Positions 2,011 through 52,275 of a DNA stretch of 64,000 nucleotides are shown in pieces. The notes below the pieces were generated by a model. The model saw nothing but the letters and a program-made list of their open reading frames with translations, made no database searches and was not told where the DNA came from. Source of the stretch: Caprimulgus europaeus. Its lineage: Eukaryota > Chordata > Aves > Caprimulgiformes > Caprimulgidae. The position numbers and the translations under genes are program-made. Position 1 is the stretch's first letter. The number at the start of each line of letters is the position of its first letter. Where the stretch lies: the NCBI GenBank assembly GCA_907165065.1, contig OU015524.1, positions 62,165,295 through 62,229,294 on the forward strand, written 5' to 3'.

Positions 2011-22303
<20,293 letters not shown>

Positions 22304-25960: not shown

Positions 25961-25961
25961 T

Positions 25962-25967
25962 TTTATT
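25962..25967 (-). terminator. Candidate polyadenylation signal of the Vac8-like gene
   Basis: TTTATT on the plus strand reads AATAAA on the minus strand, about 970 bases after the stop. Further copies occur at 25887-25892 and 25655-25660, so the end of the 3' UTR is uncertain. Confidence 0.3.
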
Positions 25968-26935: not shown

Positions 26936-27063
26936 TTAATATGAACTGTCTTCGTGGCAAAGAGCTGCCCTAAGGAGCTCTCGGGTTTCTTCTGTTTGTT
27001 GACGGACTTGCTCAAGGAGTTTGGCCATTTGTTTTTTTCTGAATGCTAATGAAAAGTCTGGAT
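26936..27063 (-). CDS. Vac8-like gene, terminal coding exon 14 (charged C-terminal tail)
   Basis: After the acceptor tttcag, the split codon gives Asp, then [20 protein letters not shown] and [20 protein letters not shown], ending in Tyr and TAA at 26938-26936. This tail is not an ARM repeat; it is a short amphipathic, Gln/Glu/Arg-rich helix that may form a coiled coil. Its assignment rests on phase, the splice site and the clean stop; it begins no long Met-started ORF. Confidence 0.82.
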
Positions 27064-30000
27064 CTGAAAAGGAAAAACAAGTGTTAGGCATCCTGCTGGT
27101 TTTCCCTGTATTTTAATGCATACGCTTAGAAAGTTGTATTTCTGGTTAGATACAGTTGATCGTTGTTATCACAGTGTAATGTATAGAGAAGGCAGAACAA
27201 TATTCTTCTCTGACACAAAGCAGACATAAATTCAGTTTTCATCCCTATGACCATTCAGGATTGTTTGCTGTTAAATTCTCCTGATTGAGATGTCTAAAGC
27301 TCAGTTACCAAGTTCAGCCTTATGCAACAGGTGGGTATCAAGACATAGCAGGGTCTTGCTCTGGCTCTACATACTTGAAGATACACACTATGTACATTTA
27401 TTACTATATTATAACTGTCATCCGTACTCAACTTCTACCCAAAACCAAAATCCTAACCAAAAATGAGAAAAAAAAAAGGCAAGGAACAGAATTTAAAATA
27501 TGAAAAAGATGTGAGACTTCCCAGCTAATAATGCTGGGATTTTTTTCTTGCTTGCTTGCTTAAAATAAGCTAAATTCATATATGAGAAGTTTTTAAGTTA
27601 CGTCTAGTGCCATACATTCTGATATTGGATAAAACCACCTACAGCTGAAGTCTGTTGCCCTGCTGATCAGAAAGCCTTTAGTTTTAAAACAAACAAACAA
27701 AAAAGCCCTCTGCCTTTAGAAGATAGTTAATTAAAACCAAGTAAGGTAACAGCTACATTTGAGGTTGTTCTGTTGCTTAGGTGAGCAGAGCTAGTCCCCA
27801 GGGGAAGTTGCAGGGCGCCGTCACTCCCGTTATGAAGCAGTGCCTCTCTGCTGCTGGGGGCTCGGCCCAGCGGGAAGGACGTACCTCCTCGCAGTCTGCA
27901 GAACATAGAGATGCCCAGCTGCTGAAAGCGGGTCTCTTGGTGGCTGAGGAAATTCTGGAGGCAGGCCTGAATCTCTCCGATGTGACGCTTCAACAAAAGC
28001 ATCATTTGTTCTGCGTAAATGGGAGAGTCAGTGGAGATCAGTAGGAGCCTTTAAAACACTTTGAAAACTGCATTTTGTAACATTTCAGATTGTTAATGAT
28101 GCCTCTAACTCCAGCTACAACCAGTGTTACTGCAAAGAATGGCAAAGGACGTAATACAGCCTCTAATGGTATCGCTGATCCTTCAGGTAGGTAAGACGCT
28201 GAGTGGGCTGCTGTGCTCGGAAGCTGGTCCTGGCGTGAGGCGTGTGCTGACTTACAGACAGACCAGCCCGTCGTGCCGATGGTGCATCCATGAAGCAATT
28301 ACGCTGCTGGACTCTGTCTGCTGCTTGAGAGTCTCCTCTGTTGCAAATCCTCAATGGTAGGATTGAAACAGGTTTGCATTTTCCCTTATTGGAGACTTAT
28401 TATGGACCTGAGTTTCCCTCACGTCTAAGGATTAAAATCTAACCACGCCTTTCTAGAGAACGTGGCAAGAATTATTGCAACACCTTTTTCTTTCAAGTCT
28501 TAAAGGCTCTCAGCTGCATGGGACAAGTTTATTAGGCATATGGAGGTGTGTTTTCTGTGTGTAAAAAATAATGTTCTTTTTATGCTCTCTCACTGAAACT
28601 TAAATATAGTCTACATACCACTTCACTACTCCTGCTAATCTAGTCTAGAATTATAACAGCAGTGTGTGGTTCAGCAAGATGCTTTCCTCTTGCTGGTCCA
28701 GAGTTCATCTATAATTCTGGAACACAACCATCCCTTGTAATTGTTTCTACCAACCTCTGCTTCTCTCTGTGGGGAACGCCATCACATTATATCCACTGAC
28801 AGGGAGGATCAAACTGAAAGAGGCAACAGTACCTCTTGTCTGAAACATGTTCTCATCTTTCCTTTGGTAAGGAGTATTTTATATTATCTCACCTTCCTAC
28901 TGAAGTTGTTTTCAAGGACCTTTGAATTGACTACAGACTAGCCCTGCAGAATAGCAGTGCTTGAAGAAGGCAACAAATGCTTGAATCAGACCTTTATCTA
29001 TGGTCCATTTTCTTCCCTTGGCTGTCTCATGCACTCAAGCACTGTTCTATGTGTATTTCAAGGGTGACCGTAAGCCCTTCTATGCTAATAAATGTGATCA
29101 GATGGAGGATGCTATAGGAATGTTAAAGGTTGTTTGATGCCTCCTTTGGGAAAGGCTCATTTCACTCCAAACAGCCATAAGTATCTGTGAAAGCACAATT
29201 AATGCTGTGTGACAGTTACCGTGACCCATCATGTGCTGGATGAGGGAGGCAGCTTGAAAGGATGGCTCAGTATGTTCCAGTTGGCCAGCCAGTCTCACCA
29301 AGCACTTTGTCAAGGGTTCATCCATCCATTGGACCATGCATAACGTGGCTCCTTCTGGAAGACAGAAAGTCTATAAACAGAAACTCCAGCGGTGAAGCAA
29401 TGGTGAGAGGTCTGACAGAAACCATGCTGCCTAAATAGGAAATCCCTCATGCAGCTGGAGGGGAAAAGTGCTGGACTTATGCAATAAGTACGGTTAGTTT
29501 GTGGAAAAGGGTCATGTCTTGAGGTTATGCTCTCAGAAAGGCAGGGCCATGGATTTGATTCATAGAAAGGCTGGTGGATTTTTATTTTGTTGGTTTTGTG
29601 TTCTGATAGAATTAATCATTTTAGATATGAGATCTGCTCTTGCCTAGTGTGCTCAGTCTGTCCAGCTGCTGCTGGGCACCTCTTGCAAAATTAAATGTGA
29701 TGTTGTCAGTTGCGTGGCAGTTACACCGGCTACATGAGATGAAATGTTTGAGAGGCACTATCCAATGTTGGGCAGACTGGGAAAATTTACAGTGATCCTC
29801 TCTGCCACGAGGAGTGCTCTACCCTCCACCAGGGGTAATCTGTTTCAAAATCTATGTGCAAAAAATTTAAGGAGAAAGAGCCACTTTGTATTCTAGTCTT
29901 TTCCTCTTGTATTAGTTTCTATTGTGAAATGAATTCAGCTGGAGAAACTGACATTATACACAAAAGTACACAGGCCATGGACAGCAGGAAAGTTCAGCAC

Positions 30001-33000
30001 AAAACATTTTGAGTAAAAAATTTTAAGCAGTTCAACAGAAAAAAAGGCAAACCACAGAGCCCAGGTCTCCTGCCAGTAAGCTGGCTCTTGCTCTTTTTTG
30101 AAGCTTATGGCAAAACTCCCAGTGAATTTAAAGAGAAAGATCTGGGCTGTATGCCCACCTCTGCTTCATCTCCCACTAGGATTAATAAGGGATACCTACA
30201 CTTCTCAGATTAAGCCATTTATGTTGGTGTTACTTCCCTACCTTGCTTAGCCAGCTCAGCAAGGCAAGATGTCACATAATGAAGAGAGTCTTCTTGAACA
30301 TCAGTAGAAAGCATGGCCTGGAGGAGACCTTCAACACATGGGCTCTCAAGGATTCTCTGCAACAAGGAAGGGATTCCTGTTTAGCCGTTCCATTATGTTT
30401 TAGTGGTGTCCGAGAAAGTACTGATGAATAACTCTTCACAATAATGAGGGCTAAAACATCAACAATGGAAATGTCTCCTCCATCACCTGATTTTGGGCAT
30501 TTCCCAGGGCTTGCTCTGTCTGTGGCATGTTCTCATGATCGTGGATCACTCTGAGCTCAAAGAATTTCCTGACCCATTGCTGCTGTACCAGGCGGTATGT
30601 TAGTATTAAGCTGTCATCTGCTCCAGTCTTGCTGCAGAGGTGAATAAGGTGAGTGCTCCAGGGCAAAGCACTGGGACATGTGGAAGTTTTTCAGCTTCTC
30701 TCTGCCTCCAGGGCTTTGAAAACTTCCTGATGTTAAAATGCTCTGATCTGATCTGAGATGACCTCTTACTAGCAAAGGTGAGTTCTGAGAAATTCTATGA
30801 ATTAAAAATTTCTGTGTTTCCCTTATCTTTTAAGTTGAATCTGCTATGCCAAGAGTGGTGCTGGACAGCATGTCTCTGTACTGGAATAGATATTTTAGAG
30901 ACCAGGCTGAAAACAGATGAGACTTAGTTACTAGTGAACTTGAATCACAGAGTCATCAGCTCTCTGGGAGGCCCTAATAATCGAAGCTGCTCACACCTCC
31001 ATAAGGGAGCTCAGGTGTCCATCAACAAAAAGGACTCTTTTTTGTGTGCTCATTTTATGTTGCAATTTTTTAACTTGCTGCTTAGAGAGTGAAGCTGGAT
31101 TCAAGACTGATGCTTTTCAAGCTTCCACATTCTGTTCATGTCCTGCTGGCATAAAACCCACTTTTTTCCTCTTGTGCCAAGGACTCTTATGTGTTTTAGG
31201 GATGGTTCCTTAGAATTGACTCTGGAAACCTGGCACTACCACTCTTGTCTGTGGATTCACTTTTGCAGTGAGAGCTAAATGCTCTATACATTATAAAGCT
31301 TTATGAAAGTGAACCAGCTCCCTGCTGATAACAGAATAAAGTCACAGAATTTAAGTGAAAAATATGGTAATTTTTTAAAAAGCAATCTTTGAAAGGATGG
31401 CCCATTTTTACTCTTACTGTGAGCCTTGAGTTTGAGGGAATCTATTCCCCTGCAAAAACTGATTTCCCAACTATTAGAAATTCATATAATTCTTAGTATA
31501 AGTGAAAAAAAAATACTGGAAATAGTTTTCCTTTTGGCTAGTTTAAATCTCTGGAACTAGTGGTAACTGGATCATGAACAAAGAAAAAAAAAAAGTGCAA
31601 AAAGTCTGTGCTAGAACGTGGGGCAAAGCAGAGACAAGGATTTGAGTGGGTATTTTTTCCCCTGTATTGATTGTTACTAGTGGTACTGTTTGGTCAAGGT
31701 ACTCTTCAAAGGCAAGGAGAAAGGAAGCACATTGGATTTCATTAGAAGCCAAGCCAGCCATAGAGATCTTTACAGCATCTTGGCACAACTAGGGTCTTGC
31801 CAGACAGGCGAGGTGTACATGAGTAGCTGAGGTTACATTTAACAAACTGGGAGTGAAATTAGATCAATGCTGAACACCATAAGTGGATAACTAAAGGCAG
31901 CCAAAGAGTGAAAGTTAGGAAATAAGGATTCAGTTTATAACAAACATCAGATTTTCTTGGATGGTTCTTTTAATTAGTATGAAATGTCTTTGCTAGAAGT
32001 ATGTTTTACGCCTGTGATGCAGTCATTCAAATTAAGTAACCACATCACTCATAGGAAAAATCAGAAATTTCTTATTTTCATTAGCATTTTTGTATTGTAT
32101 TGGAAAAATATGAATAAAACCCCCTTTCATTGTGGCACATCAGGTCCTTTTATATGTACACATATCCTTGGCACATGTTTCATTAAAAAGAAAATATTTC
32201 TGTGGATAATGCTAATTTGATATAAACCTAGCTGCAACCCTCCAGGCTATAGTTCAGTGAAAAATACAGAGTACCTACCTGTCTGTTTTTGGAAAGGCTC
32301 AGGTTTTTGATGATACAAGCAGCATGGCCAACAATCACAGGGTCTGTTTTATGCACTGACAGTAGCATCCCCAGCCTCTGCAGTAGCTTGGCACATGCCA
32401 GAGTGTCCTGAGAAGAGCAACCAGCATCTCAGTTACATCCAGTACAGACAACACAATGCAACTTTGCAGCAAACTGTAGCTAGACAGATCTTCCTTCTGA
32501 AAGAAAAGCGTTACTTAATGGACTTCAACCAATGCTGTAGCGGCTGGGACCAGTCCTTCTTCTCTCAAAGTATGGTCTACTGACTGATCTAGAGCACTTG
32601 CTATGGAAAGCTGGTGTCTTTAAGGTCTGGTAATTTATTTTTGTTTCCATCAAATGCTTCCCAGAGGTTGTTGGTAGTCAGGAGAAAGAGGTGATCCTGA
32701 CTGGAAGAAGCAGTGGTCAGGATGGGTGTGAAAGGCAAAAGTATGTGGTGAAGTAGCAGCAGCAGGATGTCCTCGAGTACCTCAGCAACTTACCTTGCCT
32801 ACAATAATGGACTGTGTGTGTAGATCAGTTTGTCATCAGGCATCACTTTAGTAACATATTCTGAACAGCATCTTCTGAGTTTATCCACAAGTTCTCTGCT
32901 GTCTGGTGGATATTTCAGAGGGACTTTACTGAGTCCCACTCTCCCTGCATGTAGTGTTTCTCCAACTACCATTAGTATTAACTGGATTAGATCTTACTTA

Positions 33001-36000: not shown

Positions 36001-39000
36001 GGACCACAGGGAGTTGCAGGGAAGTATCCACGAAATCTGACAGGCATTTCCCCCTCCAGCCTCCCCTCCCATTACAGGTAATCTGATTAACTACAGGACC
36101 CTTTGGATCCTACTCACTACAACAGACAGGCTCCTTGGGTAGTTAGTGACAGTGCAGACGCAGTACACAAAACCTCGTCAATTTGTGTTGGGAGGGAGGA
36201 GGATTGGGAAGCCTGATGAAGTCTGTTGGCCAGTCACAGTATGTGTTTTGTTTGCAGTTTTACTGTAACAGAGCGTTACCCCAGGCAGGGGCCAGAACGA
36301 CTCTTTCCCCTCTGGTCTTGGGAAATGAAATGACCTCCCCTACCTGGTTGTGCGGGTGCTGGGACAGTATCCAGAGCAGAGCGATGGAGGCGCGACGCAC
36401 GTCCGCGCTGCCGGATGCCAGGAGAGAGCACAGCTTGGGCAGGACGTCCTCAGCAACCATCTCCGCCTGGATGTCTGCTGGTTTGGGAAAACAACTGAGG
36501 TCAGGGAGCTTCAGAGCACCGTGAGGAGACATTCAGGCTCTGACTCATAAGCATTTGACTGCCTCATTGATGAAATTAGAAGGGACCTCTCCATCTCTGT
36601 GGGATGGGACAACACTGGTTGGTTGGTTGGTTATAAAAATAAACCCTCATTTATTCTGTCTCCTTTTACCAAAGGATTGATACAGGCTTGAGAGCAGAAT
36701 GTAGCTTTGGGCACCCTTTAGTTCGTGTCTGAACCCCAGTGAGAAGAAGGGAGAGGAGTTTTCTGAGTGCTTAATTGGCCTAAGGCCCAGTAGAAGGTGG
36801 CAGCTTCTGTTGCACAGACAGAAAGACATCTCCAAGCACCACGTATCTCACACAGTCATGGTTAGCCAGGGGAGAGATCAGCTGCCTTGGCTGAATCCTT
36901 ACACCTCACTTGTCCCTGCAACCTCAGCAAGTGCTTTTGGGCTCTAAAAGGCAATGCCAGAGCAGACAGCAGATGGAACTGCAGTCCTAAAAGGGCAAAT
37001 AGACCAGGGGTTTTCAATCACACCATGGAGCAGCACAGCGGTTCCTTGACTTCCAGCTCCACTATAATTGTGATTGCTTGAAAATGAAGCACCTCTATGT
37101 TTTCCAGATGAACAACTCTACCCTGAGTGTTCCAGTTGTCTGCCTTCATCTCCTGAGTATGATGTAAAAAAGGATCTTGGGCATTTAATAGGATACAGTG
37201 TTTTAATAGGATGACAAATGCTTGGGAGGAAATTATATTTAATGACAAACAGATTCATGCCTTGGGAGAAGGCAGGTCCCCACTCAGGCAACAATTTCAG
37301 GATATATGCTGTCCTAATCAGGTTTAATGCTTAGGAAACATGGAAGGGAGAAAAACTTAATACAGTTGCAAAGGTTCTGCACATAAGATGACCTCTGCTG
37401 TCTCTGCTGTCTCTCTCACTTTGTCCAGATACTTCCCTTCGCTACCTGGGAGCTCTGAGGATGGTTTAGTGAGTAAACCTGTACTTCCTTCTTCCCTTAA
37501 CATCCACTTAAAATGTAGGAATGTATCTCTCTGCTTTTAACATGAGAGGTTCCCAGCCCACTGTGCTCTCTCTGAAAGGCAGAGAGAGAAAGAAAAAGAA
37601 ATAGTGTGATTATTTATCCCAAATATATTGCTTACCACTTGTAGCCAAATTTCTTAGGCAAACACATGCCTGGCTTGAAACCTGCTTGTGCCAAAGAGGG
37701 GGAAGAAAAAAAGAAAAGAGAGAGAGGAAAAAAAAAGTGGTTTCAGTAATGCATGTTCTTGGCTATTGTATACAAAATAAATGTCACAACACTAGCAAGC
37801 TATTACATTATCTTCAGAGAACAAATTTTGGGACATGGTTGTTTTTCAAAGTTTGATGAATTTTTTTTCAACCTCCTCTAGTATTAGTCATCCTGTTGTT
37901 GATGAGGAAGAGCCAATGGGGGTCAGATGTTGGTTTATTTTAGGAATGTCAGATAACTTATAGGAAAATGAGGGGAGTGAATTTGTCTCATTTGCTTTGC
38001 CTTTTTTTCACCTCCTTCCTACACCGAATTTAAGGTTCCACCCTTTAAATCCTGAACTGTGGCTTACTGAAGTTTCTTTGGTGTGACTTCCAACAAAGCA
38101 AAATGTTCAAGGTGTTATTCTTTGAAGCCATATAGTAAAAGTTATGGATACCAAAAAAAAAAAAAAAAGTAGCATAATAGGTGTTCCAGGCACCTTCTGT
38201 CACAGACATAGTAATCAAAGATAGTTGAGAGCCTGGACAGAGCACTTCACACATGTAGTTTCAGTTTTAATGAATACAGGCCATCCTAGTCTAAAAAACG
38301 TGTCCAGGGCTATGGAACAACTTTAATGATTTCTCTTCTCCTTCTGCACACACTGACCTTGTAGAACCTATGTAGCTTCTAATATACGTGTCTTTTCTCA
38401 TGGGAAAGATGCTACATAGGCACCTGTACAGGAGGTAAGCAAAATTATGCAAGACAACCTGGAAGCCCAAGTTTACAGCTCTACTCTGATGCTAAGCCTT
38501 TACACAAGAGAAAGCTACAGCTTTACCTTGTCCACAGAAGAGGATAGGAGAGAGATGAGTGTCCGCAGCAGGAATCTGTTACCAGGTTTCAGCATGGCTT
38601 CATGGTGCTGAGCATTGGCTGCCACATTGCTAAGGGCAGCACAGCTGTAATACTGCAGAGAGCCAAGAAAAAAGTAGAGAGAGAGGAGGTCACAGTGGTG
38701 ACATGTTGAAGAGAATAAAAATAAATTGGAGAAATGCTCAAATTTAGAGCTGATGAAAATGAAGTGTTTTATTGCGTAGATGTGATAACAGCCTGAGTGG
38801 GCTTCCTCCAGGAACAGTGATGCAATCTGCTGTCACAACAACAGCAGTCATGCTGTGGCACTTCACGTTGTACAAACCCACTAGGACCCCAGGTATTTGG
38901 GAATGTACTGTGCTGCTGCAACAACACTGCTACTTGCACCTAAGTTAGTGCATCTGCATCTGCAATATTATATGTTTACATTGATTTACTTAAGCCGGAT

Positions 39001-42000
39001 GTAGTCATTGCCCTAGCATGCCAAGAGATCATTTATTTTCAAAGTATTTAAACATTAATGCTAGGGAGCTTTACATATGTAATGTATGTATATATTACTA
39101 GGGAGGTATAATTAGAAAAAACAGGTTGAACTGCAGAGAAGGAAATTTTAAGACGAATCTCAGAGAAAGCTGATGATGCTGAAACAGTTTGCAGAAAGCA
39201 ATTCCAGAGGCTCCATCACTTCAGAAATTTAAAAGATAACTTAGAGATAACAAAATTAATGAAGGAAACAATCTTGTACTACTCAGAGGACCTAATGAAT
39301 GAACTAGTGGATTTTAAGCTTCATAATTTTTCATCAGCATACTTTTGAACCTAGACCAGCTCCCTGTTAAGCATGCAGAATCACAGAGCTGTCTGTGGTA
39401 GGCATGAAATGGGAAGATTTCCCAGACATTTACAATAAGAAGATAAAAAAAATCTTTGCAAGTTATGCTTTTTCAGAAGATTTAGTAAAATTGCTTAGAG
39501 TGGAAGATCAAAGTTAGGATGTAAAAAAAAAAAAACAAACAAAAACCAGAGGAAGAACCTTATCTGCAACTTGTCTGATAAGCTCTGATAAGCACAAGAT
39601 GCTCTCGTGTTTCTTCTCTAAAGAAACCTTCCCTCCTCTCCACCTTTTCATTTGCACGTGCTGTGGTTTGTCCTCTCCTGGCAGTCACACTGTTATTGCT
39701 TAAACATCTGACCTGTTTGAGCCATACCTGCACTTCTGAGTCAGGAGATTCCAGCAGCAAGGCAAGAACTGGTAGGGCTCCTTCCTTGCACAGGACCTGT
39801 TGGATTTTCTCTGCCATATTTTTTAAAAAAAAAAAAAAAAAGTGCTGTTAGTGTGTAGTGTCTTTCCCCTTCCCTTCCTCTCATCTGGAGGCACCATTCA
39901 GAAGGGATATGCACAATCACTGGATTTTAGAGAGTGGTGAAGTTGTTCAAATATATGCCAACTGGTGTGACTGTAGACTATATAATTTAGAGTTTGTGCA
40001 AAGTGGCTGTACCCAGGCATTTCAGCAAAATGACTGGCAGGCTGGCTGCTCATTTAGGCCTTTGCAGCTTTTATGCTAAAGACTGTTGCGAGAATCTGAA
40101 TTGCTGGAGAAGCTGAAAAACCTCAGCTACGAATTTCACCATGATTTCTGTATTAAAAAAAAAAAAAGATTATTTAAAAACTTCTGGATAATAACAGAGG
40201 TGTAACAGCCAGCGGTGGAAGTTCTTGCCAACCATTCCTTTCCGCTATATGGAGATAGGAGACATTACTCACAACTGCATCATTTAGCTGTGTGGGATAA
40301 TGGTATCATCTAGACAGGTGAGATTTAATGCTGGTTTGTTTCAGAGTTAATGTATAGTAGTACACACATTCTTGCAGAGGACCAAATACTGCTTTAGCTA
40401 AAGCTGGTGGCAGATATCCCAGGAGCCTTTAACATCTGGCCCATAATAGTTATATTTTGCATCTTCCAACATAAAGTTAGGGTCACGAGTCAATGTTCCT
40501 AGACCTTGACCTTGTTGGATAAGCTTCTGAATTTGCTTCAAAGTACCACCAAATGTGCTGTGAACTTTTTAGACCAAGTTATTTCTTTATTTATTTTTCT
40601 TTCTTTAAGTGCTTGTACATTAGCCCCTTGGGGTTGAAAATCAAGCCTTCCTATTTCAGTTCTAGACAAAAAAAGGTCTGTATTAGCTAAAGAGAGGCCA
40701 AACTTAAATCATCAGCCAAAGGTATCAACATGAATGCCCATATGCAAAGGAAATAATTTGTTGCTCAGATATGCCTTAACCCTTTTGAATTAATTTTCTA
40801 ACAGTAAGAAATTTTCTTTCAGCAATTATAGATAAATCATTAGTCAGAAAGTACCTGATTGTGTGAGGTTGAGAATAGCACCAACTGCATTTTGTTGGAC
40901 TCTAGGATCGTAGGAATTGGCTAGAGACAACAGCGGTGTAACTCCTCGAGCAGCGCCAATAGCCTCTCGGTTGGACTCTGGAGAAAAGAGTCAGAAAAAG
41001 AAGGAAATAAGACATTGCCATCTTACTGCCAGCCAGGAGCAGGACAACTTGCAGGACTAGATTTCTTTGGTGTTTGCTTCTCTGATTCTTTGGTATATAT
41101 AAAAATTTCTCTGCATGTTCAAAGGAACCTGTTAAAAATTCCAAGAGCTCAATGGGGAAGAAACTAACTCATGACTTCTGGATTAGCCACAGATCACAGC
41201 CAGTTCAATGCTTTTGTTCTGTGACTGAGATGATTAAAATAAAAGGACCATAACTCCCCTTAAACAGGTTAGTAAGGCTTCATACTCGCCTTGTACCCCT
41301 GGTATGTCTGATCCAGCTATTCACAGTGTGCCAACCAAAACCTACATAATTAACTGCAGATAAGACTGAATTAATCTAGCAGAGTATGTTCAGGGCTAAT
41401 TTCTCTCTTTGAATGTGCCTACATCACTCCTTTGACAGCTACAAACAATGCAGAGGTTTCTAAAGACAGAATTTGACTTAACCACTGGAATTTGAAAAGA
41501 TGCTTCCTCTCTGAAGTGATGAAGCTTTCTTCCATGGCAGCGTATTAAATTGTACAGTTGTATTCAACATCCTGGATTACAAGAATTCAAAAAAGATCTG
41601 CAGAGTCCCTTGAGACTCCTGGATGAAGCACTGGGAAAAAAACCCCCAACCTATAATACTTAAATATTGCTATAAAATTAACTATATGCTATAAAATACT
41701 ATATAACATATTTATGTACTGTGTATATATGTATACTACATATGATAAAGTTATACTATGCTATGAAATATAATACAATTTAAGAAAAAAACCCCTGCTT
41801 TTAGTTCTACTCCTTTTTTTTGGACTTACTGAAGGTAACCTCAGCTGCATGATAGAAGAGAATCGTTCCGTTATGCTCTTCCCTACCCCTCTACCATGAG
41901 GCCATCAAAACATTTGCAACAAACAACCTGCTGCCACACTCAGACAGCTGTGGTCCTCTCCCCTTTACTGTCTTTCTTACACATTATCTGTATTTTTTTC

Positions 42001-45000
42001 TTATAGGCATTCTAGTGGCATGATTTTGAGAAAATAGGGTGTTGGCAGCAGTGTTCTTTGAAGTTGATGAGATTTAAATGGGAACTAGACAAATGAAGAA
42101 TTATCTTAATATCACAGTATTCTGCAGATTACTTTATAAAAAGAAAAAGCAAAGTCCAGAGTCTACATCTTTCATTGTTTCTATGAGCCAACCTGCCACT
42201 GAAGACCATAGGAGTTTTAGTTGAGTATTGCTTCATTTACGGACATTTCTAAACAATGGTCGGTCTCTGGAAGTTTGCTGAGAAAAACATGAAGCAGAGG
42301 AAAGCGAGAAATGTGGAGGTATTTGGATGAGATCAACTCTTCAGGTGCTAGCTAACTGTGTGAGTTAAGAGAACAAAGTCATTATACCTGGAAGCAATCT
42401 ATACTGGAACTGACACACAGAGATAATCCAGGATATCTCTTCAAGCATAGTTCAGCCAGTACCCGTTTAGGATTCCAGGACAAGTCTTTTCTGCCTTCAT
42501 ATGAATACTTTATGCTTAAGGAAATACTTTTTACCTGGAAAAAAATACTCTATTTCTTGAGCAAAATAATTGTTCCAGGAAGAGTCATGTATTTAAAAAT
42601 AGCTTTTCCACGTGGGAAGCTATTATTCTGGTGAAATTTTCTGGCCAATTTTGTAGATAAGCCTTTCTCCCATCTAATCTGCCTGCATATTGTTCTTTTG
42701 TTTCCCTCAGCAGAAGCAGAAATTCTTTTGTGTGGCTCCAACTGATGGAAATCAGTCTGGTGTGATGTAAACTCTAATTAGTTGAGTAAAGAAGAGTGGT
42801 AAAAAGATTGAGAATTCAGATATTGCTGCTTCCTTCATTCTTCCACACAAAACACTCCATGAATATTTGTGAATATGGAAGAGAACCACATATTTGGGTA
42901 AAGGGATTACAAACTTTCAGACAAAACTTGGGCAAAATATAACAGAAAATAAGTCACTGGGTGCTTCAAAGGTTTTTCTTCCTTAAAGAAACATAACTGG
43001 CTTGATTTGGAAAGGCTTCACAACCATCACAGCTCAAACAATTTTTCTGCCCGAGGACTCGGAGCTGGTGGTCAACACAGGAAGCCTCCAGTGGCAAGAT
43101 GAGCTCTTACAGCCTGCTTTGGAGAGATGGGGCACATCGAGACCCAGGGATCCCACTCCTGCCTGGGAAGGACTGGAGCACCTGCTCTCATCACGGGAGA
43201 GTGGAGAGACCACAACAGGTATTGACATGACAGAAACCTCTGGGACCAATTTTTTTTTTTTCTTTTCCTTGGGTCATTCACTAGCTGACAAGTTCTCCAC
43301 TGCAGTCTTTGTTAGTGCCCATTCTTGTGGCTATGCTGGATTTATTCTTACATATGTCATTTTTGCTTATCCTTCTCTTCATTCTCATTCTAGTTTGGGT
43401 CAGATAATGTGGCTGAACAGTACCTGTTTCATCAACTTATGTCAGAATGGATGGAGATATCCATCTCATCAAGATGTGTAACTCTACTATCATCTCTGTA
43501 AGAGATGTGGCAGGCTAGGTCGTGTTTCTCTGCTGGACCACCTGTTTCTCTGAGTAACACAGTCCCTCCACTGATGTCACTGCAATTGCTGATGGCCCTC
43601 AGAGTGCTTTTAGAAGGGAACCTCATATTCGGATGCCACTCAAAAGTGGAGAAATCAATAATATCTATTCAATCTGGGTTTGAATAACCTTGAAACCTGC
43701 ATTTATAAATTCTTTCTTCCCACTCTCTGCCACTTGTGCACTTTATAACTCTCCTGTCGGTGCAACGTTGAGCATGCACTGCACTCACTGCATTCTCCTT
43801 CTTCGGCTTCATGCAGATGTTCAGGCCTCTCTAACCTGTGCTGCCAACGTTTAGTTCTGTTCCTATGTACTCTGAGAAGAGTTCTTATCCCAGAACAGAT
43901 TACTTTCACCCACAGATTGAAAAGCTCCAGATAATAGCAAATGTGTATGTGTCCTCTTGCTGCGTGGACAAATGCTACTGTTGGAACAAAATGACTTTCA
44001 AATCTTTTTAATCTGAATTAGTTTGTTTGCTGTTTTTGTTTTTTGCTACCTATTGCAGTGAGTATCAGACAACCCAGCTTACGTACAACTTGCAGTCACA
44101 TTACGAAATAGCTTCATTCTGTACACAGTCTTGGATATTTACTGCAGCAGAGTTAAGACACATTACCATTCTTGGATTTAGAATTTTAATCACCTTAAAG
44201 CTATCTAAAGGATCTTCCTAATATGATTGTGCTTCCATATTTATCTTTTCTAAATCACTCTGAAGCATGAATGGTTTACTTGAGGGACATGGTTGAACAG
44301 AATACTTTTCTCAAGTAGGCCCTTTAAGATCTCAAAGTCTGCAAGTTAAAATTAAAATAAACCCTAGAGAATTGCCTCTTGCTTTAGTCTCATTGCTGTG
44401 GTAGCTAAACATAGCCTGAAAAAGAAATAAATGAGTCCAGTCTGTCTAAATGCTAGTTAAACTGGGACAGAGATCCTCAAAACTGATCTAAATCCCAGAC
44501 AGCAACCCAGCCTATGCTCTCGCAGGACTGCCTACCTCTACATTCAGCAGATGGCTTCCTATCTAGTTTGAAAGCTCCCTGAACACTTAATTTGAACTAC
44601 CTGTGCTCAGAAATACACTGACACTTAGGGGAGTGTGCAATGGTATTAGATAACCACCTTCAACAGAGAATGAAGGTGGATTTGATCTGGAGTGGCTGAG
44701 AGTTCCCTACACTCTGGGTTAGAGACATCTAGGAGAGCTAGAGTGCCTTCAGGACTAGGGGATATCCTTAGGTACTGAAAGAAGTTGCTTTCTCTGTGGA
44801 CTGCTTAAAACAGGTGAAGGGATATCCCTCTGTAGATCTTCAGATACATAACTCTGCCAATTGTACATAAAGAATGTCCTCCAAGTACCAAGCATCTAAA
44901 ATTTTAGTGATGCCATGCCTAATTTAGACATTTGAATAAAGCAATTTGCATTCCACACAAACTAATGTAATATACAGTTCTTAACCTGACCATAATAATA

Positions 45001-48000
45001 TGCAATACTTAAAAAAAAGTTTCAAAGGGAAAAAAATATTTTAAAACCTGCATATAAATAAAAGATGGGATAAAATGCAAATCAGCACTTTGATGTTGTT
45101 GTATCCTGCTTTTCCATCCACTCCCCCTTTGCAAGACAAATATTTAAATGAGTAAGTAACACTTTCACCATGCTTCTCCAGCCTTCCGAGAGATCTGATT
45201 GCAACTTCCCATACTGGAGAGGGAAGCTGGTGGAATAAACACTAAAGGAACAGAAATACCTATTATTCATGGCTTTTATACAGGGATTTATACAATATGT
45301 ACAGTAGAATCACACACTTTGTGAATAAGCCAGACTAACCTGATAACCTTTCCTTTCCTAACTGTGCTTGAGCTTATCTATGCGGATGCCAGGAAAATAT
45401 CTACATCATGATATGAAACATGCAAGAGAAGATGGTGATAAATGCAAGAAGTGCATGGTGGCTAAGGAACTGACTAAAAGGAAGCTGGCAGCAAGTTCTG
45501 CTGCATGGGAATGACCACCTGGAAGGAGGCTACAAGTGGAATTCCATACGGACTGGTCTGTTGTTTTTGAACCAAAAAGTTAATACAAAAGCGTGAGTGC
45601 ATCACTGTAAATGTGGTGGGGGACTGGAATATTTTACAAATAACAGACAAGTTAGAAGACTGAAGCAACAGAAATAGAACAAAACTTTCTAGTACAAAAT
45701 GCAGGGACATGCACTTTGAAACATTTGTTGCAGACCCTTAATTAATTGGTGTCTGCTGCAAATAGCAGCAGAGGAGGAGAAACACAACGTGATTAAGTCA
45801 GCTGCAGGACAGCAACATCACCATGATGCAATCACAAAAAAATCAAGTGTTACCATGAGATATACCACAAAACATATTTCCCTGGATGCCCCAATAAAAG
45901 ACACAGGTAAGACCCCAGCTGAAATACTGCACATTTCTGGTGACCTCTCTTTTGGAAGAGATTAATTCAAAATGGAACTCCTGCAGCATTTATGTACATG
46001 TTCAGACTGTAACAATGCATGAGGTCTGTGGCATCACAAACCAGCAGACAAAATTACTATGTTCCATTTCTGGAACATATAATTTACACTCAGAAGAGCT
46101 ATGAAGATGAATGGAGAGCCTCGCTTACAAACGAAGTCTTAAATGAGCTTGGCTTTTTCAGTCTGGTAAAATGAAGGAGCCTGACCAGCACAGACATCTG
46201 AGAGGGACAACGGCCGAAGCAAAAGCCAGTGTGGACACTAATTAATATAAGCTGGTCATGCATATATTTAGGTTGGAAATCAGAAATAGGTTTGCAATCA
46301 TAAGAGAATGAAGGTCAGAAACACTGAGAAAAAGATCCTAGCTGGAATTTCAAGAGGTTGAATTTATGATGTGGGAATACCAAAATTTGCTCCTGCATCT
46401 TATGACTCTTAAACCAATTGCAAATATGTTGTTTCACTTTGAAACATGATGTAGGAGTTTAATGAATTCACTGTAGAGGATAAAGAGAAAGAACAGCACA
46501 CTTACCTGAAACAGCCAAAGTCATGGTGCAGGCACAAGAATTACACTGGACAGTGGGATCCTCCGACTCAAGCAGATCCAGAATTGGCTCAAGTAAACCC
46601 ATTTGGACAACTGTTTCTTTGTCAACTATTCATAAATGTAAGAAAAGATGGACAAACAGAAAAATAAACAGTCAATACCTTTGTGAAAAGAATGTATCTT
46701 CCTCTGACTGCTTTAGGGGTCTATGTTCTGATTATGCAAAACAGACCTGAGATGGAAACAGCCTGAAAGGCACTCATAGTCCCTAGCTTGGTTTGCTTGA
46801 TTCCTCTTCAGATTCATGAAAGACTGTAAGAGATGTTCAGAGGTTCTAGTTCAGAAGGTCCCAAATATTTCTTCTAGCAATTCTGTTTTCAAACATAAGG
46901 TTCATTTTGGAAAGTGCAACTGCAACTTTCCAACAGGTTCACAATTTAATCAGTGCCCCACTCTTTTTCTTCTGAAATCTACCTTTTAAATATTTTTTTT
47001 TTACTTGTAAATAGTGACATGATATTATTGGCAGCAAGATGCTTAAAAAAAAGAAAAGAAAAAAAAAATCTATCTTCATTGAAGACTGATCTGTCTTCTG
47101 CTGTTACAGGATAGTGTGATAGAATACCAGTTGTGGCCCAGGTGCCAGGGAGCACAGTGGATGCAACAAGGACTGTTGATGAGGTGTGGGGTGTTCATGC
47201 TCTGTCTATCAACATAAACCTTATTGGGAAGTTTGTCATCTGCACCTTCCAGATCCTACCTCAATTACATTTGCCCTATTAGTTATAGAATAAAGTGAAT
47301 TCTATTAAACATTTCTCTTTTTTTAAATATAAAATCTGCAAGCAATTTAAGACCAAGGTCCAGTTAATAAATAACAAGAAAATGAGCACTGTCTCACAGG
47401 CAGAGTCTATTTCTAAGAGCTGTATCTGTTACTTGAAAGGCTAAGTGGTGGGCTCTCGATCCAAGGATGATAAGAATATAGCTGTTCCCACACCAGTTTA
47501 GGAATAATTTACCAGCCTTTGCATAGAGATCCAAGATCTCTTGCCACATGATATAATCTAGCTGGAGTGATCCGATATATTCTGGTGCCGCGAGAAGCTA
47601 TGTAGCTTGCAGACAGAAACAGACTCACACACGTCCTATCAGGAACACAAGAAGCAGAATTGGATGTGTGTAGACCTCAGTGTGTAGATGTGCCCTCCTC
47701 CTGCCTGAGTCAGGCTGAAGAGATAGTTTTTCACGTGAACAGAGATGTGTTGTTAATTACTCACTGTTTTCTTCCAGCAAGAAGTTGACAAGGGACAAGG
47801 AAGACATCTGCTGCACCTCCAGGTCAGCAGACCGTAGTAAGGCATAGAAGGGCTCCAGATGCTCCACAGGCAGGGGGACGTTCACTGCAGGAATGAGAGG
47901 AAATATTCAGAAGTCTCATTGTTCACTGCAGTCACATTTTCCTCTTGTTGTTCTTAAGCCTCAGGTGCTACTGTACATAGTCTGAGTGGTATTCCCCTTC

Positions 48001-51000
48001 ATTTAAATTCAATTGCTACTAGCAAAACAGGGCAAGTTTCCTGAAAAGGTTTTGAATAATCAAGTACTTCAAGAACATCATGGGAAGGGAAGCAATATGC
48101 CTCACTACCAAACAAATCATTCTGCCTCATAGCAGGTCCTCATGTTGTGGCTATCTACACTTTTTTATCCAGCAAATAATACAGAGGACAAAGCTATCAA
48201 GCCAAGTGCCAGAATATTCTCCCTGAAGTAAATTTTAAAGAAACAAATAAATAAATCACAGCCTGCTTGTTGCTGATATTTCTGTCTTTTTGTAGGACTC
48301 AAACTCTTGCTGGAATCTTATTTGGCAGATCTAGGCTGACTTCTAACCATTTACAAATTACCTCGGGAGCTAAGTGCTCCTACAGAATAGTTGGACAAAG
48401 AAGAATGTTTCTTTCAAAAATTTTTACTACATTCTGGTCTCTAGGCATTTGTCCTCTTCCAAAAATCATGTAATATAAAACCTTAAACGATCACTATGTC
48501 CATTTCCTTCCACCATAGTTTTGACTGTATTGCTCTCAGGAGATTCAGTATACATTGACTCTAATTACTTTGGGCTCTGCTGAGTTTTTCCAGAAGTATT
48601 GCAATTACATAAATGATAGTCTCATGAGAGATATCTCTTCATAGCAAAACCCAGAATAACAGCCCACATGGCAATGACAGCATTTCCATTTTCGTTAGCA
48701 AACAACACAGCATGAAAGAAACAAACTTTGATTAATGAATCAAAGGGGGTTTCACAGTTGGAAAAAATACTTTTATTTGTAATTATGTGAAAATTTTCTA
48801 ATGCACTGAGATAACTTACTGTGCTGGCTCATATGCAAGTAATAGAGGGCAGCAGACTGCTGTAAACCTGGGTTTTCTGAAAAGGCTAAGGTCCTCAAGG
48901 CTTCCAGAGGGTCCTTTCCAAGTGGTGACATTTCAAAACCTGAAAATGTATAATGACATCACACACTCAATTATATCTGAAAAAAGTTAGTTTACAAAAA
49001 GAAATTAAAATTTCCAGCCAATCAAACACATAAGGACTTTTGTATTGCAACAAGTCCATACAGGCCATCTATCCTTATTCATGTTTCCATGAGAAGAATC
49101 AATAAATGAATCTGGAATAACCTGTCCTTGGCAATGTGTCTCGTGAAGCTCACAAAGCTAGTGACTGGAAGCAAGATAAATTATAACCTTTAGATACCTT
49201 TATACTCTCCAATAAAAATGCAGGTGTTCTTGTTTTCCATAAAAATATCTTTTCCTGAATCATGGAAGATATTTGTTAAAATATATCTTCAGAACATGGT
49301 GTTCTTAGTTATGAGCTATAGAAATAATATATATTTTTAATTTACTATATTTTAAGTTCACTGTGTTTCCTCTCCAGGGTATTACAACAAAGGATTTCAG
49401 GGAATAGCAACATGGATTGTAAACGGGCTTGCCTCAGGCACAAATTTTCAGCATGAGTCTACCTGTTCTCAAGTATGATAGTTCCTCTATGAATAAACCA
49501 GATGTTCAGCAATAGCTATCAAGCAATAGCAGTCATGCATGACTTCTGTAAGTCACTGTATAATGTACTTATAATGTGTGGAATGGAGCAGCAAAGAGAG
49601 AAAAAAAAAAGGGCCATTGAACCACTGCTCAATAGTAAAAACTGCTGAAAAGGTAATGTAGTATAAATTGACTGGTGGATCACACAATTATAAGAAATAT
49701 TTTCAGACAATATATTGAAGAAGTGCACTAAAGATTGAAATATCTCTGTGAACAAGATCTAGCTACTTCAGCTCCCAGGGCATAAAGAGATGCAATGGAT
49801 GTGAGGAGTGTGAGCTTAGTGCAAAACTTATCCAATATCTCAAGGTATTAAAAGCTGCTGACATGTCAAGAGCAGTAAACTCCTCCCTTCAGGATTAGGC
49901 AAGTGAGATTCACAGAAGTGCTTCATATAAAGATCATTTTTGTTCAATAATTAACAATACACACAAAGCAAGAGCTAGCCAGTGTGTGTAAGGTTCTAGA
50001 GGAAAACCAAAAATCTCAACATGTGGTTTAATTCTGCTCTTTGAGCACTATCTGAATCTCCCACATACTTGTGTGTTTTTGTTGGGAGAGTAATAAAGCA
50101 GAAGCCACTAAAAATCTTCACCTGCTTATAATATCAAGCATTTGTTGCCTGAGCTAGCAGCTGAGTAGGATGATCAACCACGAAGTCTCTCCTTGCACCC
50201 AAATTGTCCAAATGTTGTTTCCCTGCTTATTATAGGTCATCCAGAACTGAGCATGGGCTTGTTCCATTTTGGAATAAAATACACAGGCAAGGGGTAAAGT
50301 AAGAGGGATGTATCTTGGTTCTCCTTGTGAGGCTTCCTTGCCTCCATCTGTCTTGGCAGCAGGATTTGGCCACGCAGAGAATTAATCTTGGTTCTTCTTC
50401 CCGAGTGCTGTGTATCTCCTATCATGGATATCGCGACCTCCCTGAGAGCACAGGTCACCATCTGTGCACTGCTGTCACAGAAGCCCTAGGTTCACTGCTG
50501 CTGTACCCCAGCTCATGAGGATCTAAGACAGACCAGCCTTTTGAAGACCCAGCTCAGAGAGGCAAGGATTTCTCAAGAAAACATACACATTATCTTCAAG
50601 AAGCATTAGTGGTGCACCAAAGAGCCATTTTGGCCTCACCATCTTTTCCAGACCAACTCTCTGTTGCACCTGATCCATCAGCTGAGCTGGGATACTGCCT
50701 AAAACAATCTCTTATACAGTCAGGAGCATGCTAGCCTTTGGAAGAAAAAGTTCACCCCTAGAAGATCCCCACTGTATATCAGGCTGAAAGGTCTGGTTCC
50801 ATTCTGGATATGGCCTTCAGAATTTAGCTAGTGCCTCGTGTGCAATAATTAGTGAACCCTACCAGCAGCACAGGACCCCCCACACTCACAGGGTAATGAC
50901 ACCAGCTAACACCAGCTGGGGCTAATTCACGCATGTTCCCAACAACCAGCCTAACAGCAGTTGTTCCAAAGGTTGTTCCATGACAGATCATTTCAAACAG

Positions 51001-52275
51001 CATTCACTGTTTCACAGAAAGGAAAAAAATGTCTTTCCTGGCCCCTCTCACAAGATGGTTTTATGTCCCCAAAAGGTAAGTAAAGAAACACACTCTTCAC
51101 ACAAATGAAAGTAGAAGGCTATGCAATTTTATGTAGTAGCTTTAGCCCAAGGTTATTAAACTTAAATCACTATATCCAATTAGCTGTGAGACAATGTAAA
51201 ACCAAACAAGCAATGGCCCCTGCCCAACTTGAGAGAAGGAATGATTTTAGGTTGGACAACTGACAAAACACGCTTTTCCAAGATGATATTCTGTGATGTA
51301 GCAGTGAAATTAAAAAAAAAAAAAAATTATTGATATTGTTGTATCCTAGGACAGGACAGAGAGGACACCACAAGTAGACAAACAGGGGAGTTAGGGAGGT
51401 AGCCTGTAAAACAGAGATACATGAAGTTATGGATCTACTTTGATTCAAGCAGAATCCTATGATTCTGTTGAAGCCTTGTGTCTAAAATGTTCGCACGTAG
51501 GCAGACCAGTTGCTTGAAATCTGAGGAAGTCCTGGGAGCCCAACAGTGTTTGTCCTAAGGTGACACAGACCTTCTCTGCATCTAGTGCAGGCACCCCCAG
51601 CACAAGTCCAGGTGTTCTTCAGCCAGCAACATGGATGCAGAACTCATCCAGGACTACACTGTGATTTGCCTTCTCACAGCTCAGCACTTGTGTAGCATCC
51701 AGTGTCAGTGGAGCATGTTTACAGCTTTGTGACCTCAGTGACTGACTTCAAAATATTAACTTAAATTAGAAAGACTCACCTTTACAAAACATATTTACAT
51801 GGGTTATATATTAACAGTAGTGCAGAGCAAGAAAGTGACTGACCATTTCTACCTAGATCCAAGTGTTACACCACTTGACCCTTGGTGCCCTGTACACAAA
51901 GAAAAAGCTCTGTAACTCTGGCCTTTCCTGCATCTCCAAGCTGCTCCATGCCATGCTAGAGCAGTTCAGCCAGCAATCTGTTTTCAACCCACAAAACAAA
52001 TCTCCTTGTTTTTTTCACAAGCCTTTAGAAAAAAACCAAGCACTCTTACCTGTTTCAATATGCTGCAGAAACTCCTGTGCTGTCACCCTCTCATGAGGTT
52101 GCAGGATGGGCTTGTAAAGCTGTCTGGCCTTAGAGCTCTTTTGTTTTAAGCAGGAGCATTTGCTTAGCAGAATTAAGCATTCCTTGATGCCGTGCACCAA
52201 GTTGGAGGACATCCTCTGGATGAAGGTCATGAAGTCTCGCAGCAGCTGCATGCATCGTCCACACAGCTGACCCAT
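26936..52275 (-). CDS. Vac8-like armadillo-repeat protein, complete, 14 coding exons, 575 aa
   Basis: The joined minus-strand exons, in transcript order, are 52275-52050, 48939-48820, 47884-47765, 46625-46506, 40977-40855, 39810-39728, 38652-38527, 37681-37636, 36474-36344, 32407-32279, 30356-30242, 29354-29220, 28010-27885 and 27063-26936. They total 1728 bases, which is 575 residues plus TAA. Every intron is GT/AG and phase-consistent, and no stop interrupts the frame. Yeast Vac8 is 578 residues. The product has an N-terminal Met-Gly with Cys5 and Cys8, a run of armadillo repeats of about 40 residues, and a short charged C-terminal tail. Vac8-like hallmarks are [20 protein letters not shown] near residue 83, [11 protein letters not shown] near 265 and [11 protein letters not shown] near 309. 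Yeast Vac8 is a lipid-anchored adaptor on the vacuole; the role of this vertebrate relative is unknown to me. It might also be classed as another ARM-repeat protein (for example an ANKAR or ARMC3-related product), but no ankyrin repeats are seen. Confidence 0.92.
27885..28010 (-). CDS. Vac8-like gene, coding exon 13 (last ARM repeat)
   Basis: The 126-base exon (acceptor atttacgcag, donor gtacgtcc, phase 1 at both ends) encodes [20 protein letters not shown] then [22 protein letters not shown]. The pattern resembles the last Vac8 repeat, where a helix-turn-helix is followed by F..L..... W. Reading through the donor gives about 50 more codons before a stop, but the strong GAG-GTACGT donor and the well-fitting next exon argue against retention. 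Confidence 0.88.
29220..29354 (-). CDS. Vac8-like gene, coding exon 12 (diverged ARM repeat)
   Basis: The 135-base exon (acceptor tgtcttccag, donor gtaactgt, phase 1 at both ends) encodes [20 protein letters not shown] then [25 protein letters not shown]. The [11 protein letters not shown] segment fits the third ARM helix. An internal Met starts the apparent open frame, but the exon extends five codons upstream of it. Confidence 0.87.
30242..30356 (-). CDS. Vac8-like gene, coding exon 11 (ARM repeat)
   Basis: The 115-base exon (acceptor ccttgttgcag, donor gtagggaa, phase 0 in, 1 out) encodes [20 protein letters not shown] then [18 protein letters not shown]. The junction reads [16 protein letters not shown], which is the common 'NR..ILESGCVE.LL' layout of ARM helices 1-2. 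The repeat is more diverged than those upstream. Confidence 0.88.
32279..32407 (-). CDS. Vac8-like gene, coding exon 10 (ARM repeat)
   Basis: The exon has 129 bases, phase 0 at both ends, with acceptor gctcttctcag. It encodes [20 protein letters not shown] then [23 protein letters not shown]. The donor is gtaggtac, where a second GT lies four bases further on. It continues directly from the previous exon's HPHNQ loop. Confidence 0.92.
33422..33480 (-). mobile_element. Short CR1 3' tail fragment
   Basis: About 58 bases (tagaatcatagaattgtttt... gagtccaactg) match the reversed 3' end of CR1. It lies in an intron of the Vac8-like gene, in the same direction as that gene. Confidence 0.85.
36344..36474 (-). 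CDS. Vac8-like gene, coding exon 9 (ARM repeat)
   Basis: The 131-base exon (phase 1 in, 0 out, donor gtagggga) encodes [20 protein letters not shown] then [24 protein letters not shown]. It is GC-richer than the other exons, with several CpG. The acceptor is a tandem cagcag, so a variant one codon longer is possible. [16 protein letters not shown] is a typical ARM third helix followed by the loop to the next repeat. Confidence 0.93.
37636..37681 (-). CDS. Vac8-like gene, coding exon 8 (46-base ARM helix exon)
   Basis: The smallest exon encodes [15 protein letters not shown] and has acceptor cacaagcag and donor gtaagcaa, phase 0 in and 1 out. The sequence is the third helix of an ARM repeat whose first part is the end of the previous exon; yeast Vac8 has VKCQATLALRNLAS there in my memory. 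It splices in frame to the exon at 36474. Confidence 0.91.
38527..38652 (-). CDS. Vac8-like gene, coding exon 7 (ARM repeat)
   Basis: The exon has 126 bases, phase 0 at both ends (acceptor gctctctgcag, donor gtaaagct). It encodes [20 protein letters not shown] then [20 protein letters not shown]. The [11 protein letters not shown] motif matches the yeast Vac8 pattern C..ALSNIA in the equivalent repeat. The frame contains no other long ORF here, so this exon is easily missed. Confidence 0.94.
39728..39810 (-). CDS. Vac8-like gene, coding exon 6 (ARM repeat, first part)
   Basis: The exon has 83 bases, phase 1 in and 0 out, and donor gtatggct. It encodes [20 protein letters not shown] then ESPDSEVQ. 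The ARM repeat is split from its third helix, which begins in the next exon ([11 protein letters not shown]). The acceptor follows a run of 17 T (minus strand) separated from the AG by about 14 bases. The frame also reads through a Met just upstream, but this is intronic. Confidence 0.93.
40855..40977 (-). CDS. Vac8-like gene, coding exon 5 (ARM repeat)
   Basis: This 123-base exon (acceptor ttctccag, donor gtactttc, phase 1 at both ends) encodes [20 protein letters not shown] and then [20 protein letters not shown]. The [13 protein letters not shown] segment is the canonical ARM third helix. It follows a 5.5 kb intron. A longer chance frame overlaps the exon but is not the coding one. Confidence 0.94.
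40978..46505 (-). other. Large intron of the Vac8-like gene (5.5 kb)
   Basis: It lies between coding exons 4 and 5, which join in phase. Apart from a possible LINE relic at 45.9-46.4 kb and an AT-rich microsatellite-like stretch at 41660-41790, nothing is recognised. The frame at 43002-43481 has no splice or family support. Confidence 0.6.
45860..46370 (+). mobile_element. Possible ancient CR1/L3-like LINE relic
   Basis: Phrases such as 'gaccccagctgaaatactgc', 'ggagagcctcgcttacaaac' and 'gagcttggctttttcagtct' follow, in order, the 3' part of CR1/L3-family reverse transcriptase DNA (LVRPHLEYC..., then the 'agcttgagactgttcagcct' segment). Divergence is high. This rests on word similarity only. 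Confidence 0.45.
46506..46625 (-). CDS. Vac8-like gene, coding exon 4 (ARM repeat)
   Basis: A third successive 120-base, phase 1-1 exon (acceptor atgaatag, donor gtaagtgt). It encodes [20 protein letters not shown], then [20 protein letters not shown]. The pattern '[22 protein letters not shown]' is a textbook armadillo repeat. Three Cys residues lie in its third helix. Confidence 0.94.
47765..47884 (-). CDS. Vac8-like gene, coding exon 3 (ARM repeat)
   Basis: The 120-base exon (acceptor attcctgcag, donor gtgagtaa, phase 1 at both ends) encodes [20 protein letters not shown] and then [19 protein letters not shown]. The [11 protein letters not shown] turn is the typical ARM helix 2-3 pattern. 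One exon equals one 40-residue repeat length. Confidence 0.93.
48820..48939 (-). CDS. Vac8-like gene, coding exon 2 (first ARM region)
   Basis: The 120-base exon (acceptor cattttcag, donor gtaagtta, phase 1 at both ends) encodes [20 protein letters not shown] and then [20 protein letters not shown]. The SxNxxLQxSAAL pattern closely follows the first armadillo repeat of Vac8 proteins, which in yeast reads SDN.DLQRSAALAF as I remember it. Confidence 0.93.
52050..52275 (-). CDS. Vac8-like gene, coding exon 1 (N-terminus, residues 1-75)
   Basis: The start chosen is the ATG at 52275-52273 (context aagaATGG). It gives [20 protein letters not shown] and is followed by a Cys/Lys-rich region and [15 protein letters not shown] longer in-frame ATG lies upstream, but a pyrimidine-rich tract followed by an AG at 52278-52277 suggests an acceptor directly before the chosen ATG, so the 5' UTR is probably in upstream exons. 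Gly2 with Cys5 and Cys8 resembles an N-myristoylation plus palmitoylation signal. The donor is gtaagag and the exon ends in phase 1. Confidence 0.85.

Follow-up and report, generated by a model that had tools for sequence, protein, structure and literature searches.

Whether vertebrates possess a counterpart of Vac8, the armadillo (ARM) repeat protein through which yeast organises the inheritance and fusion of its vacuoles, membrane contacts and the initiation of autophagy, is the question raised by a locus of the bird Caprimulgus europaeus. The window analysed here is the whole 64,000-nucleotide (nt) stretch of assembly GCA_907165065.1 (contig OU015524.1, 62,165,295–62,229,294, forward strand), and all coordinates are relative to it. 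Its minus strand carries a gene that a first-pass annotation had interpreted as Vac8-like. The present analysis supports that interpretation: judged by its sequence, the gene very probably belongs to the Vac8 family, and we estimate a probability of about 0.7 that its product is a membrane-anchored adaptor, namely a Vac8-family ARM scaffold that would be S-acylated at a membrane, as its cysteine pattern suggests, and dock partner proteins there.

The exons were located by relaxed splice-site scans and by reading the minus strand. Fourteen of them with compatible phases run from 52275 to 26936, and all 13 introns are of the GT-AG type, so the in-phase assembly proposed initially stands. The joined coding sequence of 1731 nt has no internal stop, ends in a single TAA and encodes 576 amino acids (aa). 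Two acceptors stand in tandem at exon 9 (CAGCAG at 36474–36480); the 575 residues reported before are obtained with the second acceptor, while the first gives 576. Exons 5, 6 and 8 lack an in-frame Met, in agreement with the remark that several exons hold no Met-started open reading frame. The start ATG has a good Kozak context (A at −3, G at +4), in-frame stops lie upstream of it in the genomic sequence, and AATAAA motifs, identified as motifs only, occur 968, 1043 and 1275 nt 3′ of the stop codon. Exons 2, 3 and 4 are equal in length, share their starting phase and, in an alignment to Vac8, encode one ARM repeat apiece. The joined exons are beyond chance, because bird proteins predicted from other genomes match 100% of their length with up to 92% identity. 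We thus confirmed that C. europaeus has an intact protein-coding gene at this locus.

Orthologues range from sharks to birds. Searching predicted proteins with the bird query gave 213 matches, the best 120 of which are listed, and a padded search with a frog query, covering candidates of at least about 577 residues, gave 53, all listed; each search scored the approximately 8000 candidates that shared most words. Among the best 120 of the 213 matches, bird orthologues reach 92% identity over the full length. The goshawk 'vacuolar protein 8-like' (92%) and its chicken namesake P0035 (85% over the full length) are the same gene as that of C. europaeus, differing by species divergence only. Full-length turtle orthologues are mostly 70–74% identical, followed in the same list by crocodilians (72%), tuatara (69%), squamates (58–65%), caecilians (62–63%) and frogs (55–61%). 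In Xenopus tropicalis, P0120 is the orthologue. The frog query retrieved 52 members of the vertebrate Vac8-like gene family and one plant kinesin. Its matches extend the family to coelacanth, sturgeon, lungfish, sharks, rays, a chimaera, and eels and other teleosts, which are 39–55% identical to the frog protein. Four teleost orthologues (P0220–P0223) are 39–45% identical to this query, versus 49–50% for shark and 54% for sturgeon, and seem to evolve faster. No named mammal occurs among the matches listed (the best 120 of 213 and all 53 of the frog query; P0114 and P0211 stand outside the species-named set). A mammalian copy should have outscored the frogs, so this points to loss of the gene in mammals.

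The entry names of the orthologues are automatic ('vacuolar protein 8-like', 'Vacuolar protein 8', 'uncharacterized' or 'hypothetical'). The product is of a familiar kind and has its name from automatic annotation, and the first-pass description of a little-described vertebrate relative has to be divided: we recognised no dedicated study of the vertebrate Vac8-like gene among the papers listed on Vac8 homologues, ARMC3 and LOC421690, but the gene is not a lone oddity. The name itself is loosely used, as a Nematostella gene provisionally called 'Arm-repeat containing 4, yeast vacuolar protein 8' illustrates (PMC4300403).

The family assignment was based on solved structures, reciprocal profiles and a tree. 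Among the best 60 of 148 matches of the C. europaeus protein to solved structures, yeast Vac8 (PDB 7YCJ, 5XJG, 6KBN) ranked first with 199.8 bits (E value 8.2e-58) in one stretch, residues 56–455 of 576, over which the two proteins share a collinear ARM array. This alignment contains no Vac8-collinear match past residue 455; the claim that the protein follows yeast Vac8 in its repeats thus holds as far as that residue and not beyond it, and the two are of similar length. The next entries were designed ARM proteins (at most 101.1 bits; one chain of a designed entry, 5mfm_C, with 72.8 bits, bears the label importin subunit alpha), natural importin-alpha (61.8 bits) and ODAD2/ARMC4 (54.1 bits). 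The ARM repeats were also recognised by Pfam (PF00514, E value 6.2e-33), and neither an ankyrin nor an IBB family is among the Pfam matches of the protein; ANKAR (P0184) carries ankyrin repeats.

A fungal Vac8 profile was built from 12 sequences, i.e., yeast Vac8 and 11 of 15 fungal candidates, the incomplete P0128, P0130, P0131 and P0134 being left out, and a vertebrate profile from 20, i.e., the C. europaeus protein and 19 orthologues chosen for spread from the matches. One or two sequences each of ARMC3, ANKAR, ARVCF, CTNND2 and plant CSI1 represented other families. The fungal profile matched the C. europaeus protein as one collinear domain of 256.7 bits, whereas the best domains of fish ARMC3, the ARVCF-like, ANKAR and the CTNND2-like sequences scored 81.9, 44.0, 35.8 and 34.9 bits, respectively. 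Conversely, the vertebrate profile gave 267.8 bits for the best domain of yeast Vac8 and 33.7, 31.6, 31.3 and 22.4 bits for those of ARMC3, the ARVCF-like, ANKAR and the CTNND2-like sequences, respectively. Vac8 was thus favoured in both directions over ARMC3, ANKAR and the p120-type catenins (ARVCF-like and CTNND2-like; no plakophilin sequence), which agrees with the family named initially. In a maximum-likelihood tree of 40 sequences and pieces, with ARMC3 entered as two pieces, the 20 vertebrate proteins split off (support 100/100), as did the 12 fungal Vac8 proteins (96.9/98), while ARMC3, ANKAR, CSI1, Pythium and others fell outside both groups on long branches with weak mutual support. 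The vertebrate part was broadly species-like. Because the tree is unrooted and has very divergent pieces as outgroups, it shows distance and not the branching order of the ARM families.

The N-terminus would also link the protein to Vac8. We counted residues in the raw sequences of 55 vertebrate proteins that were chosen for spread from both orthologue searches and all kept; these counts are lowered by P0212, without the module, by P0219, P0221 and P0222, with extra preceding residues, and by some fish sequences shifted by one or two positions. The C. europaeus protein begins with MGQLCGRC and has further cysteines at positions 33, 40 and 42, and in the alignment of the 55 the usual start is M-x-x-x-C-x-x-C, followed after about 30 residues by C-x-C. 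Cys5 is present in 44, Cys8 in 45 and Gly2 in 36 of the raw N-termini. Between the cysteine groups, residues 9–39 form a strongly amphipathic helix with a mean hydrophobic moment of 0.519 in C. europaeus (shuffle mean, 0.182), and the moment is 0.51–0.60 against shuffle means of 0.18–0.21 in all four species compared (C. europaeus, Xenopus, Latimeria and Heptranchias). The vertebrate CxCLK directly precedes a pre-ARM linker of the type found in six fungal Vac8 proteins, and so do the cysteines of P0125, the sole fungal protein in the comparison with an intact N-terminus. The linker scored 7.2 bits in C. europaeus, versus a maximum of 4.1 over 5000 shuffles, a modest signal, and exceeded the shuffle maximum in 44 of the 55 proteins.

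Yeast Vac8 has the motif CCSCLK at the very start of its N-terminus. The same CCSCLK occurs about 35 residues into the protein, without Gly2, in four of the eight aligned cartilaginous fish (P0204, P0205, P0213 and P0214). The vertebrate protein shares the Cys-rich anchor pattern and differs from the yeast one in about 35 additional residues with the amphipathic helix before CxCLK and in a Gly2 that is not universal. According to PMC6899017 and PMC12734321, yeast Vac8 is anchored by myristoylation of a glycine and palmitoylation of three N-terminal cysteines, and by analogy the vertebrate N-terminus is probably a version of that anchor. As described in PMC3567180, Toxoplasma TgARO, a palmitoylated ARM protein and Vac8 homologue, tethers an organelle; the likeness to it is one of description only.

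We propose that the two cysteine groups flanking the amphipathic helix would be S-acylated, and that Gly2 would be myristoylated in the orthologues possessing it. The lipid anchor would hold the protein on the cytosolic face of a membrane, at which the ARM superhelix, chiefly repeats 1–6, would dock partner proteins, much like Vac8 at the vacuole of fungi. Conservation among the vertebrate proteins peaks at residues 126–275 (mean majority share of approximately 0.8, versus 0.50–0.65 past residue 326), and identity to fungal Vac8 peaks at 44–46% in residues 199–280. An endolysosomal or lysosome-related organelle membrane is the likeliest place of work, a tentative step to which we give somewhat less than even odds.

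Several results weigh against a Vac8-type adaptor. Three long ARM proteins, P0132, P0136 and P0138, exceed the C. europaeus protein in summed score on the fungal profile (421.4, 364.8 and 276.0, respectively, vs 257.2), and the sum of P0132 on the vertebrate profile (327.9) is above that of fungal Vac8 (287.7); these sums are stacks of partial matches, the best single one having at most 109.4 bits. Gly2 is missing from all eight cartilaginous fish, all three turtles and one caecilian in the aligned set, so that myristoylation cannot be a fixed feature, and 11 of the 55 vertebrate proteins failed the linker test. Identity to fungal Vac8 drops to 18–19% past residue 407. At the positions of R276, R317 and R359, through which the groove of fungal Vac8 reportedly binds Nvj1 and Atg13, the C. 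europaeus protein has R316, W357 and K400. Arginine is retained at the three positions in 14, 3 and 1 of 20 aligned vertebrate proteins, as against 12, 11 and 12 of 12 fungal ones, and the asparagine adjoining R317 is present in all 12 fungal and none of the 20 vertebrate sequences. Since the triad is largely replaced, yeast partners and functions are not simply transferable, and we do not file the protein as a fungal-type Vac8 with an Nvj1/Atg13-binding groove; the adaptor design has likely been kept, and this section of the groove would not bind partners in the manner of yeast Vac8. The presumed human ARMC3 sequence considered below, which matches Vac8 in a single stretch, and the expression of the chicken gene also count on this side.

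The chief competitor concerns role and not family: the gene could encode a Vac8-family scaffold for secretory granules, cilia or germ cells that is no longer an adaptor of lysosomal-type membranes. The replaced triad and the diverged C-terminal half would suit such a change, as would the pituitary-enriched, low-level expression of chicken LOC421690, 'Vacuolar protein 8-like' (0.56–0.82 fragments per kilobase per million by RNA-seq in a table of PMC5148799), which, going by the shared name, is probably P0035. Conservation of the cysteine–helix–cysteine module and of ARM repeats 1–6 speaks against it, and we regard it as unlikely, albeit deserving of weight. A generic ARM likeness, with the gene belonging instead to the p120-catenin/plakophilin, ANKAR, ODAD2 or importin-alpha families, would account for the significant matches to importin-alpha, ODAD2 and designed ARM proteins. 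It is very improbable in view of the fall from 199.8 to 61.8 bits at the next natural solved family, the low ANKAR, ARVCF-like and CTNND2-like scores on the fungal profile and, modestly, the linker match. We rejected fungal contamination, horizontal transfer from a fungus and a decaying pseudogene; the nearest characterised proteins are indeed fungal, but the 14 exons adjoin MAP7 exons in one locus, orthologues with a broadly species-like tree occur across jawed vertebrates, and the frame has neither stops nor frameshifts, with canonical splice sites throughout.

ARMC3 requires closer comparison, as it is reportedly the mammalian Vac8 orthologue, with Lei et al. 2021 cited as the source. The database ARMC3 of fish (P0155) has 856 aa with a C-terminal PF14381 (EDR1/CTR1/ARMC3-like domain), which is not among the Pfam matches of the 576-aa C. 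europaeus protein. Its nearest natural solved relative is ODAD2 (82.5 bits), ahead of plakoglobin (76.9 bits) and Vac8 (72.0 bits). When it is compared with a joint Vac8 profile, the local matches do not follow the order of the profile. A presumed human ARMC3 sequence was likewise nearer to ODAD2 (106.7 bits) than to Vac8; unlike the disordered fish matches, its match to Vac8 is a single stretch over residues 29–385 with 86.6 bits. The N-terminal FDPLPVES of P0155 resembles the Vac8 linker YDPVLADS by eye, but had no score with the linker profile. In the literature, PMC8664900 calls the mammalian Vac8 counterpart unknown and offers ARMC3 as a suggestion, other papers treat ARMC3 as mammalian Vac8 or as a candidate for that role, and PMC3141441 states that vac8p, armc3 and armc4 form a separate clade each, the tree not being displayed there. 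The publications that equate ARMC3 with Vac8, together with the significant Vac8 match and the linker likeness by eye, are what would favour taking the gene described here as bird ARMC3 or a close paralogue, a reading to which we attach very little probability given the missing PF14381, the wide gap between ARMC3 and yeast Vac8 on the vertebrate profile, the proximity of ARMC3 to ODAD2 and the published separation of the clades. The two proteins have ARM repeats and a significant match to Vac8 in common, and a role in autophagy is also reported for ARMC3; ARMC3 differs by its extra domain and by a much weaker likeness both to Vac8 and to the C. europaeus gene. By sequence, ARMC3 stands much further from Vac8 than the vertebrate gene does, and the comparison does not favour ARMC3 as the Vac8 orthologue, although it leaves the reported function of ARMC3 untouched. 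A broader reading combines these points: jawed vertebrates would have received a genuine Vac8 orthologue by descent, bearing a novel anchor of cysteines on either side of an amphipathic helix; in mammals this gene would have been lost from the MAP7 locus, and ARMC3, instead of being their Vac8 orthologue, would be a distinct ARM protein closer to ODAD2. We give this combination even odds, the single-stretch match of the presumed human sequence counting against it.

The features of the gene are listed in the following table.

Table 1. Exons and 3′ signals of the Vac8-like gene (window coordinates).
Feature	Position	Strand	Basis
Exon 1: start codon, anchor module residues 1–42 (~52275..52150), pre-ARM linker residues ~51–74	52050..52275	-	
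Exon 2, 120 nt: ARM repeat 1	48820..48939	-	alignment to Vac8
Exon 3, 120 nt: ARM repeat 2	47765..47884	-	alignment to Vac8
Exon 4, 120 nt: ARM repeat 3	46506..46625	-	alignment to Vac8
Exon 5, 123 nt: ARM repeat 4, without in-frame Met	40855..40977	-	
Exon 6, 83 nt: first part of ARM repeat 5, without in-frame Met	39728..39810	-	
Exon 7, 126 nt: ARM repeats 5/6	38527..38652	-	
Exon 8, 46 nt: R316 (Vac8 R276 position), without in-frame Met	37636..37681	-	
Exon 9, 134 nt (131 with alternative acceptor, first base 36474): W357 (Vac8 R317 position)	36344..36477	-	
Exon 10, 129 nt: K400 (Vac8 R359 position)	32279..32407	-	
Exon 11, 115 nt: C-terminal repeat region	30242..30356	-	
Exon 12, 135 nt: C-terminal repeat region	29220..29354	-	
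Exon 13, 126 nt: C-terminal repeat region	27885..28010	-	
Exon 14, 128 nt: stop and conserved C-terminal stretch around QVRQQTEET	26936..27063	-	
Possible polyadenylation signals AATAAA, 968 and 1043 nt past stop	25887..25967	-	motif only

On the plus strand of the window, exon pieces of MAP7 (ensconsin) lie at approximately 5.8–10.7 kb, and the joined pieces match PF05672 with an E value of 3.3e-39. A further likely MAP7 exon was seen by eye near 2.6 kb, which makes the overall extent of the MAP7 exons 2590–10720. On the other side, some 6 kb 5′ of exon 1, a CpG island spans 58251–60000 (GC content 0.53–0.79, CpG ratio 0.69–0.98) and may be the promoter of the next gene; by eye, no coding exon was recognised between the island and position 64000. 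The human gene order would suggest BCLAF1 as the gene beyond the island. With the MAP7 exons and the CpG island as borders, the interval is known in which mammalian remnants of the gene could be sought. A 164-residue open frame within intron 4 (42987–43481, plus strand) looks like chance sequence and was rejected. Two others, 6858–7499 on the plus strand and 17733–18057 on the minus strand, are frames that we take to resemble the 3′ end of an avian CR1-type reverse transcriptase; the former had no Pfam match. The window contained no Rfam family and no long near-exact repeat.

The interest of this gene lies in a testable claim on the identity of the vertebrate Vac8. Its loss in mammals, if true, would explain why the vertebrate gene has been overlooked. 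With a much closer Vac8 relative present in chicken and Xenopus, the existence of a vertebrate Vac8 can be tested directly in standard laboratory animals.

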